This document shows positions 1,032 through 19,888 of a stretch of 39,327 nucleotides of DNA, one piece after another (position 1 is the stretch's first letter; each line of letters begins with the position of its first letter). A model generated the notes under the pieces. The model had not been told where the DNA came from, did not search any database, and was given only the letters and a program-made list of their open reading frames with translations. Source of the stretch: Pseudomonadota bacterium (GTDB taxonomy: Bacteria > Pseudomonadota > Alphaproteobacteria > Kiloniellales > J153); the NCBI GenBank assembly GCA_022572105.1, contig JACZWN010000003.1, positions 1 to 39,327 on the forward strand. The letters run 5' to 3'. Both the position numbers and the translations under genes were made by a program.

Positions 1032-1303
1032 GTGCATAGCATCGCGATCCCGCTCCCGAAGCACCCGAGGTACCACCCGAGACCGAAATGCGCCCTATGG
1101 CCTCTCGCGAGCACGTCCGGGCGCGGCCTTTCGCGACCAATACGCGTGCGCGAGGCGAGAGAGGGGCGGATCGGGGGCGATGCGCGCCTCTCCCGGTATA
1201 GCGCCATTCGGCGGCCAAAAGGTAACCCTTCAATGACTAGGGCATATTCCTCGTCCGTACATGCGGCCCTCGCCCGAGCTCTCCAACTTCTAAGGCAGCC
1301 TGA

Positions 1304-1330
1304 AACCTCGTCCGACCGTCGGATGAGGTT
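1304..1330. repeat. 27-bp near-perfect palindrome
   Basis: AACCTCGTCCGAC-C-GTCGGATGAGGTT; 13-bp arms with one G/T (wobble as RNA) pair. Confidence 0.8.
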
Positions 1331-1358
1331 GGGTTGGCACGTTTACCAGGGGTGCCGT

Positions 1359-1629
1359 CTTAGCGAAAATTCCACTGGCGAAAAATCGCTAAGGGTTCAA
1401 CGGCAAAAACCCAGCAGCGGATTGCCGACGAATTGGGTGTTCCTAGGCGAACCGTTGCACGCCATCTTGGCCAAAATTCCACTGGCGAAAAATGGCCAAA
1501 CGGCGGTCTTAGCGAAAATTCAACAGGCGAAAAACCGCTAAACGGCGGCGAGGGCTCAACGCCGGACGCTTCGGGCGCTCACGACAACCGCCACCTTACC
1601 GAAAATTCAACAGGCGAAATTTCGGTGAA
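1359..1629 (+). repeat. Four hairpin repeats with conserved 19-nt loop and covarying stems
   Basis: Copies at 1360-1392, 1467-1499, 1509-1541, 1596-1628; loops AAATTCCACTGGCGAAAAA (x2) or AAATTCAACAGGCGAAA-type (x2); different but self-complementary stems. Confidence 0.85.
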
Positions 1630-1729
1630 CGGCGGCGGAGCGATACAATCGCCGGGTCCGAGAGACATTCGACGAATTGGCCTGAGTGAGCCAGGCGCGG
1701 CGGGTGTCAAGGGAACTGTCACAGAATAA
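1364..1729 (+). pseudogene. Remnant encoding a ParB/HTH-like helix-turn-helix segment plus NSTGEK repeats
   Basis: Open frame after stop at 1361-1363: ...KTQQRIADELGVPRRTVARHLGQNSTGEKWPNGGLSENSTGEKPLNGG...; QxxIADELGVxxxTVxRHL is HTH-like; no convincing start codon (only TTG 1433). Confidence 0.45.
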
Positions 1730-1750: not shown

Positions 1751-2416
1751 ATGGCACGGACGCCCATCTTCGACAACCCGATGACGCCGGCCGAGCGCCA
1801 GCGCCGCTCACGCCAGGCGAAGCGCGAAGGTGTCCAATTGCGGGGCGGCCTTGGCGACCCGAAGTCCTTGGCGAGGATGCTCGGCGGCTCGCCTCAGTTC
1901 TATCGGGACATGTCCTATGTTCAGCAACACGGTGTTCCCGAATGGAAACAGTTGCTTGAAAACGGCAAGGGCAGAATGATCATCGGGGCGGCGGCTCAGC
2001 GCCAGATGGTCAAGTACCTGTCGCCGAAGGACCAACGCGACATGATCGAGATCGCGAAGGAGGACAAGAAACACGCGCTCGCGGTCTGGCGACTCTTGAA
2101 GGGGGCCTCGGAATCAAGTGAGACGCGGAAGGACTCGCCCTTCCGGCCTTGCCGTGCTTCCATCGGGGTGTTAGCAACCGGGGAGGCGATGATGGCTGAA
2201 AACAGCACCGGCCAAAAGGAGTCGAAGCGGCCATATGTTAGCGGCGTGTCTGACCTTAAAGTTACGCCAAACGGAGATACGTTGCTTTTCACCGTTCAAA
2301 CCGTGCCTATCCGGTTATCACCCACACCCACAACATCTAGGGTGCGCCCTCGCCTGCCGTTGAGTGTACACCCAACATATAGTGGGTGTGGGTTTCAACC
2401 GGATAGGCACGGTTGA
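1751..2416 (+). CDS. Plasmid/phage ParB-like (Spo0J-type) accessory protein, probably truncated or fused at the 3' end
   Basis: MTPAERQRRSRQAKREGV... then YVQQHGVPEWKQLLENGKGRMIIGAAAQRQMVKYLSPKDQRDMI, resembling the 'VLxxGxPELxxAVxxGxIxVxAAAxIAxLxxxxQ' region of ParB-like proteins; 3' part reads into the inverted-repeat element at 2299-2414. Confidence 0.5.
   Translation: MARTPIFDNPMTPAERQRRSRQAKREGVQLRGGLGDPKSLARMLGGSPQFYRDMSYVQQHGVPEWKQLLENGKGRMIIGAAAQRQMVKYLSPKDQRDMIEIAKEDKKHALAVWRLLKGASESSETRKDSPFRPCRASIGVLATGEAMMAENSTGQKESKRPYVSGVSDLKVTPNGDTLLFTVQTVPIRLSPTPTTSRVRPRLPLSVHPTYSGCGFQPDRHG
2299..2414. mobile_element. MITE-like element or long hairpin with imperfect ~37-bp terminal inverted repeats
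   Basis: AACCGTGCCTATCCGGTT (2299-2316) perfectly inverted at 2397-2414; inner ACCCACACCCAC also inverted (GTGGGTGTGGGT); no ORF inside. Confidence 0.65.
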
Positions 2417-2586: not shown

Positions 2587-2865
2587 TCACTCAATCACAC
2601 GCGGATGCTTTCTTTCGTCATGAAGCTCGTATCTCCCATCGGGTCGCAGGAATAGAAACTGCTTTGAGGCATTCCAGCGGTGTCTTGCTGGAACCAAATT
2701 GATGGTCCGGGCCATGAAGTGCTGCCAGATCGTATCGTCACTCCATTCCCCACGACTTTTGACACGGTCATATAACTCAGAACAGGAAATCACCTCATCT
2801 GCACTGATGACTTCCCTCATCACCTCATCGCAGCTTTCGCCATTATACCCCTTTGTTGCTCCCAT
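2587..2865 (-). CDS. DUF7669-like small protein (possible winged-helix accessory of a restriction/defence module)
   Basis: MGATKGYNGESCDEVMREVISADEVISCSELYDRVKSRGEWSDDTIWQHFMART...DGRYELHDE; pattern resembles DUF7669; ATGA-type junction with the upstream gene. Confidence 0.5.
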   Translation of the reverse strand: MGATKGYNGESCDEVMREVISADEVISCSELYDRVKSRGEWSDDTIWQHFMARTINLVPARHRWNASKQFLFLRPDGRYELHDERKHPRVIE

Positions 2866-3668
2866 TAGGATTCTCCCTCACGGTCCTTGATCATCGCGGT
2901 CTCCTTGAGCACTTCCAGTTGGCCATCGTCAGACAGGAAGAAAAAAGCTACGTCGGAAACGAGGCTGCCATACCTCTCAAGCCACTTCTCCGGCACACGC
3001 CGGTCATTTCCAAACACGAGAAATTTCTTCTCGGCATCGCATTTTTCGAGGAGCCACACATATTCGGCGATCACCGAGAATTTCGCGGGCGGTAAGCGTT
3101 CTCCCTCCACCATGGTGAAATACTTTGCATCCCCGACCACTTTCCCATCGGATGATGTCATATCGAAAACCTTATTGACTCCCGGCGACTTTCCCGGGGC
3201 AAGACTTATTACGTAGGCATCGGACATCACCCAACGGGCCAGTTGCTCAAAGAGAGTGTGCGTTGACCCGGCGTGCCTATCTGACGCGGTTTGAGCTGCT
3301 GTAATTTCTGTCGTCTGTGCATCGAGTCCGCGTTTTTCATTTTGGACAACACCACCCTCGGACATCTCTCCGCCTTTTTCAGGAGCGCTCCTCAATACCC
3401 GCTCAAACACCAGCGTCTCATCGCTAAGATCGACGTTCCGCGCTTTCCATCCTGCCCGTTGCCAGGACTGGGCATGTGTATGACTCCCAGAATTGCTCTG
3501 GTTCGCCCACCACGCTTGGTAGGTCCTCGCACTCTTAGGCAGGGGGAAACCAAGAATCGCTTCAACTTCTGCGAACGATGCATGCCACCTATCCTTAACA
3601 AATATCCGCAAGAAGTCATGCAATGGAGAATATTTCCCTGTGACAGCGGTATTTCCTGTCTCGTTCAT
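2865..3668 (-). CDS. DUF7662-domain protein with C-terminal restriction-endonuclease-like (PD-(D/E)XK-like) domain
   Basis: N-term KYSPLHDFLR...SFAEVEAILGFPLPKSARTYQAWWANQSNSGSHTHAQSWQRAGWKARNVDLSDETLVFER matches the DUF7662 signature as I know it; C-term DMTSSDGKVVGDAKYF contains a D-x-K-like motif. Confidence 0.6.
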   Translation of the reverse strand: MNETGNTAVTGKYSPLHDFLRIFVKDRWHASFAEVEAILGFPLPKSARTYQAWWANQSNSGSHTHAQSWQRAGWKARNVDLSDETLVFERVLRSAPEKGGEMSEGGVVQNEKRGLDAQTTEITAAQTASDRHAGSTHTLFEQLARWVMSDAYVISLAPGKSPGVNKVFDMTSSDGKVVGDAKYFTMVEGERLPPAKFSVIAEYVWLLEKCDAEKKFLVFGNDRRVPEKWLERYGSLVSDVAFFFLSDDGQLEVLKETAMIKDREGES

Positions 3669-18611: not shown

Positions 18612-19007
18612 TTAGCTGAGGAATCGCTGCACGGTTTCCAGGAAGTTGGTGACCGAGATGGGCTTGGCGATGTACGCCTCGCACCCGCCCTCGCGGATTT
18701 TTTCCTCGTCGCCCTTCATGGCAAAGGCGGTGACCGCGATAACGGGAATGGATTTCAGGTCGTCGTCTTCCTTGATCCATTTCGTTACCTCCAGGCCGGA
18801 GACCTCCGGCAACTGGATGTCCATCAGGATGAGATCCGGCTTATGCTCGCGCGCCAGACGCAACGCATCCATGCCGTCCTTGGTCTGAAGGATATTGTAG
18901 CCGTGCGCCTCCAGGAGGTCGTGGAACAGCTTCATGTTGAGTTCGTTGTCCTCGACCACGAGGACGGTCTTTGCAGATCCATTCGTCGATTTGGTGGCCA
19001 CGCCCAT
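18612..19007 (-). CDS. divK: DivK-type single-domain response regulator
   Basis: [33 protein letters not shown]...[21 protein letters not shown]; adjacent to pleD. Confidence 0.93.
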
Positions 19008-19513
19008 GCTCCCTTCTTGAGCCGACCCCTTGCGTAACCGTTCGCCATCCCCGCCGCAAGCCAAGCCGCGGCAGGAAGGCATTCAACCGACCGGAGATCC
19101 TCCGGCCACGGTCACGCGCAAGGCACTGTTACGGAACCTGGCTCAAACACTAGAAGAATAAAATTAACGATTGGTAAGGATTTGTCCAAAGCTGGTTACC
19201 GCGCTGCGATGCCTGCGCGCCCATCGGCTAGCCGGCATCCGCGGCGGATGCACGCCTTTCGGTTTATTTCTATACTTGAGAAATAGCTCTGAAACATTTG
19301 ATTTTACAAGAATTTATTGGAAAGACGTTCTTCGATTCTTCGCGCCGGAACCGACCGGCTTATTTGGACCTCGGCACGGCTCGGCAGGACCGGCGCCCGA
19401 ATTCCCGCCCTTGCCCATTTGCCAGCGCGGGTGCGGCTTGTTAGGAACGCCCTGCCGCCGCGGCGGCAGCGAGCACGGAAACAAACGCAAACAAACGACC
19501 ACCCGAGACCTCC

Positions 19514-19888
19514 ATGACCGTGGTTTTCGCCGTTGCCGCGGGCGGTGCGCTGGGCGCGCTCGGCCGCTATCTGGTTCTATCGTGGCTCGGCCACCGGCTC
19601 GGGTTCGGCTTTCCTTTCGGCACGCTCGCGGTCAACGTGCTCGGTTCGTTTCTGGCGGGCCTATTGCTCGCGCTCAGCTCCACGGTGTGGCCGGCGCCGC
19701 TTGAGCTGAGGCTGTTTCTCGGCGTCGGCATCCTCGGCGCCTTCACCACCTTTTCGACCTTTGCCATGGACACCGCCTACCTGGTCGGCCAGCATCGGCC
19801 GGCAGCGGTCGCGATTTACGTCCTGGCCTCGGTCGCGCTCTCGCTGGCGGGAGCCTTCGCGGGCTATCATCGGCCTACGCGGCCCTAG
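19514..19888 (+). CDS. crcB: Fluoride exporter CrcB/FluC
   Basis: GGALGALGRYLVLSWL...FPFGTLAVNVLGSFLAGLL...GILGAFTTFSTFAMDT. Confidence 0.95.
   Translation: MTVVFAVAAGGALGALGRYLVLSWLGHRLGFGFPFGTLAVNVLGSFLAGLLLALSSTVWPAPLELRLFLGVGILGAFTTFSTFAMDTAYLVGQHRPAAVAIYVLASVALSLAGAFAGYHRPTRP

Follow-up and report, generated by a model that had tools for sequence, protein, structure and literature searches.

A cluster of four hairpins with paired stem changes, possibly small coding palindromes, in an accessory island of an alphaproteobacterial draft genome

The stretch of DNA analysed here (the window, 39,327 nt) is the start of a 39-kb contig (JACZWN010000003.1) in the 3.19-Mb draft genome of an uncultured alphaproteobacterium of the order Kiloniellales (assembly GCA_022572105.1), and it carries four hairpins of 35 nt each, all on one strand, where an initial annotation had placed them (Table 1). 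The fold is real in sequence terms, and the array is real, unusual and so far unique. The explanation that we tentatively prefer, at a little under an even chance, is that a short coding palindrome has been multiplied locally, both within a small helix-turn-helix gene and directly after it, in an accessory island of mobile type.

Table 1. Positions of the hairpin copies, the fifth peptide and the two pieces of the small gene in the window
Feature	Position	Strand	Remarks
Upstream piece of small gene, ATG1233 (MTRAYSSSVHAALARALQLLRQPETSSDRRMRLGWHVYQGCR)	1233..1358	+	Putative; open frame running into copy 1; no homologue found
Hairpin copy 1	1359..1393	+	8-bp outer stem, AAA/AAA internal loop, TTC/GAA, 7-nt loop; RNA z -3.3, DNA z -2.9
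Helix-turn-helix open reading frame (GSTAKTQQRIADELGVPRRTVARHLGQNSTGEKWPNGG...TVTE*)	1394..1729	+	No ATG/GTG/TTG start ahead of the motif; weak Pfam matches
Hairpin copy 2	1466..1500	+	In frame, LGQNSTGEKWP
Hairpin copy 3	1508..1542	+	In frame, LSENSTGEKPL; 42-nt step from copy 2; a single A-C mismatch
Hairpin copy 4	1595..1629	+	In frame, LTENSTGEISV; 9-bp stem, one G-U; outer CCGCC/GGCGG; z -4.9 for 1587-1637
Fifth peptide, ENSTGQK	2198..2218	+	Codons GAA AAC AGC ACC GGC CAA AAG; no hairpin; in the next open reading frame, 570 nt downstream

The general fold consists of an outer stem of 6 to 9 bp, an A-rich internal loop, a TTC/GAA inner helix and an apical loop of 7 nt. The 19-nt loop that the initial annotation describes as nearly invariant is not one open loop, as it contains the inner helix closed on the 7-nt loop. 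The outer stem is TTAGCGA/TCGCTAA with an extra C-G pair in copy 1, TTGGCCA/TGGCCAA in copy 2, TTAGCG/CGCTAA with its mismatch in copy 3, and TTACCGAAA/TTTCGGTGA in copy 4, where one pair is G-U and two more pairs are gained; a further outer GCC/GGC helix is present in copies 1, 2 and 4. ACGGCGG stands directly after copies 2-4, as had been noted, and not after copy 1. The 42-bp unit that had been reported describes the spacing from copy 2 to copy 3, but not the other two steps, which measure 107 and 87 nt. Folding of the 311-nt array region as a whole gives a z of -4.2, and the 15-nt loop core ATTCMACWGGCGAAA, searched for with up to two mismatches, matches only these four sites in the window (chance expectation 0.06).

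The stems differ between copies yet remain paired beyond the expectation for random change, which upholds the claim that their changes are compensatory. Across the four copies 27/28 outer stem pairs are formed, with three stem positions altered on both sides, one G-U and one broken pair. When the seven outer and three inner (TTC/GAA) pairs are taken together, 97.5% of the cells are paired and three changes are double, whereas every slid register contains no double change at all. Random placement of the observed numbers of changes on each arm keeps 27/28 outer pairs with p = 0.0016, a value that assumes the stem of copy 1 to be ancestral. In a permutation of the arms, 2/24 arrangements pair as well as the observed one because copies 1 and 3 have one stem in common; with this and only four copies, the statistics are modest. 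Furthermore, the tree ((1,2),(3,4)) accounts for every difference within the unit, up to the last column, with no change occurring twice, so that recombination between copies does not have to be invoked.

The loop, for its part, looks to be conserved at least partly as a peptide, because its changes outside the extended stem of copy 4 are silent and a peptide of the same kind returns downstream, written in other codons and not folded into a hairpin, closer to the array than chance would often place it. All four hairpins are entered in one codon phase (copy 1 from ATG1233, copies 2-4 in the helix-turn-helix frame); copy 1 reads LSENSTGEKSL, and the four copies share the consensus L-x-[EQ]-NSTGE. 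Outside the extended stem of copy 4 there are two loop differences, both in third positions and both synonymous (chance 0.05), while the stem differences nearly all change an amino acid. Six nucleotide differences alter only one residue, for which p = 0.0016 under random change. A six-frame translation of the window holds five occurrences of [EQ]NSTG, all between 1365 and 2218. Similarly, the degenerate codon pattern [EQ]NSTG[EQ]K has four matches in the host genome (copies 1-3 and the fifth peptide) among 64 genomes of the order, the rest of which yield three matches in unrelated contexts. Its chance rate is about 1 per 90 Mb, and an occurrence within a kilobase of the array would be expected about once in 100,000 cases, a figure to be read with the motif having been noticed post hoc. 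The fifth peptide could possibly be N-terminal in a separate gene, with ATG2190 as its start and GGGGAGG before it.

The gene in and behind which the array would have grown is small. Its helix-turn-helix motif QQRIADELGVPRRTVARHL has weak, sub-threshold Pfam matches to HTH_23 and sigma-70 region 4. Deleting the 35 nt of copy 1 gives one open reading frame (ORF) of 153 codons, which starts at ATG1233, takes in the helix-turn-helix and ends with the stop at 1727-1729; this stop lies 21 nt ahead of the ATG1751 of the next ORF. The arrangement fits a palindrome insertion between the first and second helix of a predicted gene. A 7-nt insertion was also considered as the cause of the frameshift at copy 1 and rejected, as its removal leaves the helix-turn-helix frame unrestored. 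A near-perfect, operator-like palindrome, GTCACAGAATAACG-AAA-CGTTATATTGTGAC (1717-1749; fold z -4.9), covers both the stop codon of this ORF and the GTG1744/ATG1751 start.

The initial annotation expected the loop to turn up at many loci, each with stems that covary, but neither the covariance model that it proposed nor loop patterns found any. In the host genome, the covariance model built from the four copies finds only these four, at 52.7-56.2 bits, with the next best match at 17.1. Applied to three overlapping sets, of 148 relatives, 395 class genomes and 399 phylum genomes, it gives nothing above 29.2 bits; the matches up to that score are scattered at one or two per genome, a chance level, and those read in context are unrelated coding sequence. 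The exact 18-nt loop motif occurs at 77 places in 85,488 species genomes and, by chance, at 7 in 2.9 million viral contigs, none of them with the hairpin, and at one mismatch the loop is absent from 395 alphaproteobacterial genomes. The peptide-coded pattern ENSTGE[KN] retrieves only unrelated sequences without the hairpin geometry from the viral contigs, and Rfam 15 has no match to the hairpins at its gathering score. Neither the region nor its proteins gave any noteworthy BLAST match in phages or plasmids. Apart from marginal helix-turn-helix similarity, no protein homologues of the helix-turn-helix ORF, as it stands or rejoined, turned up in genomes, viral contigs, phages or plasmids, and its matches within the order are generic or spurious; no relatives of ORF 1751-2416 were found. 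The array was found nowhere else in the genomes, viral contigs, phages and plasmids searched, collections that may omit records of the host genome itself, and there is no cross-locus covariation. These searches speak against a widespread repeat class with this loop, and the array does not look like a widespread regulatory RNA.

Under local multiplication of a coding palindrome, copies 2-4 would have arisen by segmental duplication, as suggested by the tail ACGGCGG that they share and by the tandem arrangement of copies 2 and 3 at a step of 42 nt, and they would be translated as linker-peptide repeats after the helix-turn-helix. Copy 1 would interrupt the helix-turn-helix coding sequence after the part for the first helix and ahead of that for the second, and its 35 nt would shift the reading frame. 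Pairing may be maintained by template-switch or quasipalindrome correction, by mild selection on the hairpin or by both, and the loop would be maintained as a peptide. Several observations weigh against this explanation. Codon statistics compared with host genes do not support 640-1750 as native coding sequence in any frame, although the neighbouring ORFs of the island score equally poorly. The copies occur at a single locus, with no dispersal as an element seen, and no target-site duplication is evident at the array. Removal of any segment with a length of 2 modulo 3 would bring the frame back, a chance of 1 in 3. Moreover, no orthologues of the gene, with or without hairpins, were found, which leaves insertion and excision of copy 1 hypothetical.

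The main functional rival, unlikely in our judgement, is an array of nucleic-acid hairpins that serve as binding sites, for proteins on the leader of the ORF 1751-2416 mRNA or else as single-stranded DNA sites, in which the loop is conserved and the stems are free to vary. In its favour are the covarying stems and the folding energy, a loop that varies less than the stems and the operator-like palindrome (about 1717-1749) directly at the next start codon. It is harder to reconcile with loop differences that are synonymous, with the return of the peptide at 2198 without a hairpin, with irregular spacing and a weaker, mismatched copy 3, and with the lack of any relative in the searched sets or match in Rfam. 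A peptide repeat only, in which a low-complexity linker has codons that are palindromic by accident, would explain the single phase of all copies, the synonymous loop changes and the recoded fifth peptide. We think it improbable, as differing stems keep 27/28 pairs through matched non-synonymous changes (p = 0.0016) and no double changes appear in slid registers. Template switching has been proposed, with supporting evidence, as a source of compensatory changes in hairpins (PMC8794818), and it can account for the paired stem changes without selection. Taken as the whole explanation, namely that template-switch (quasipalindrome) mutation alone has altered a neutral palindrome in a decaying gene, with nothing under selection, it agrees with the apparent frameshift at copy 1 and with a transposable-element insertion in the island, but leaves the synonymous loop differences and the recoded fifth peptide unexplained, and we regard it as decidedly improbable. 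The initial annotation had taken the pattern as the signature of a folded nucleic acid under selection, as opposed to primary sequence alone, and had named codon-level conservation of NSTGEK as grounds against this. The claim is supported only in part. The stems do pair beyond random change, but paired changes among four local copies can also come from template-switch mutation (PMC8794818); for the loop the claim is not upheld, given the one codon phase, the synonymous differences and the recoded, hairpin-less peptide, and conservation of NSTGEK at the peptide level is thus partly found while the stems keep pairing.

Two further explanations draw on known classes of small structured inserts. 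Copy 1 could be a bacterial element for translational bypassing, a mobile 35-nt hairpin skipped by the ribosome, of which the later copies have become domesticated in frame. In mitochondrial byps and the hop element of phage T4 gene 60, a short structured insert likewise restores the frame when removed (PMC5009743, PMC8211752), as does removal of copy 1 between ATG1233 and the helix-turn-helix, although this concerns copy 1 only and has a 1-in-3 chance of arising by accident. Copy 1 differs from them in lacking matching take-off and landing codons and a stop at take-off (its junction reads ...GGG TGC CGT / GGT TCA), even if byps are laxer (PMC5009743); furthermore, copies 2-4, and hence most of the array, are in frame and require no bypass. 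We regard the idea as very improbable. Hardly credible, finally, is a repetitive extragenic palindrome (REP) or CGTC-type palindrome spread by a REP-associated tyrosine transposase (RAYT). Such palindromes measure 20-40 bp, are common in alphaproteobacteria and show complementary stem variation (PMC3733652), and the array shares the small size, the host class and the complementary stem changes, with stems that begin TT/AA and CGTC before copy 1. Unlike them, it does not keep the tag (CGTC, CATC, GGTC and CACC precede the four stems), it has a loop of 19 nt, or of 7 nt above the inner helix, against 4-5 nt in most families, and it consists of only four clustered copies in the genome, in a coding position. 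CRISPR-like (clustered regularly interspaced short palindromic repeat), type III antitoxin and CsrA-sponge readings were rejected on anatomy, as the spacing is irregular and the loops contain no GGA.

A locally multiplied coding palindrome would, by analogy, resemble in its working a miniature Rickettsia palindromic element (RPE), that is, a palindromic DNA unit carrying a conserved in-frame peptide. RPEs are about 150 bp long, lie in frame inside ORFs, encode a conserved peptide and are dispersed over tens of unrelated genes (PMC10969869). The array has the palindromic DNA unit and, in predicted translation, the conserved in-frame peptide, L-x-[EQ]-NSTGE in one phase in all four copies. It differs in its size (a 35-nt core in a 42-nt unit), in its four copies at one locus of the genome and in copy 1 being out of frame with what follows. 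With a unit about four times smaller and a single locus, membership of the RPEs is not claimed. Coding palindromes are also known from nematomorph mitochondria, where inverted repeats are retained within coding sequence as in the array; those, unlike the array, are long, perfect and in conserved mitochondrial genes (PMC6649704). If the explanation is right, hairpin repeats that combine palindromic DNA with a conserved peptide are not confined to Rickettsia-type genomes and need not come near the size of RPEs. The paired stem changes of four copies at one locus would also offer a compact case for setting selection on the fold against template-switch mutation, the present basis being one locus in one draft genome.

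The accessory island that holds the array comprises the first 3.7 kb of the window and is made up of small ORFs that have hardly any relatives or none, after which ordinary genes follow, among them those for an EamA transporter and an aspartate carbamoyltransferase. The 3' part of ORF 1751-2416 contains a 116-bp palindromic miniature inverted-repeat transposable element at 2299-2414. Its ends are matched by those of an insertion sequence of the IS1595 family that the genome carries elsewhere (G000 C98, about 18717-19835; transposase PF12762). On the opposite strand, 2865-3668 (-) encodes a DUF7662 protein, for which PADLOC has no match and whose C-terminal GDAKY motif is, in our own reading, suggestive of a PD-(D/E)XK nuclease. 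Upstream of the array, a 16-bp inverted repeat, CTTTCCCGGGCTTGTG/CAGAAGCCCGGGAAAG, lies at 982-1031, where the sequence is GC-rich and no gene is evident.
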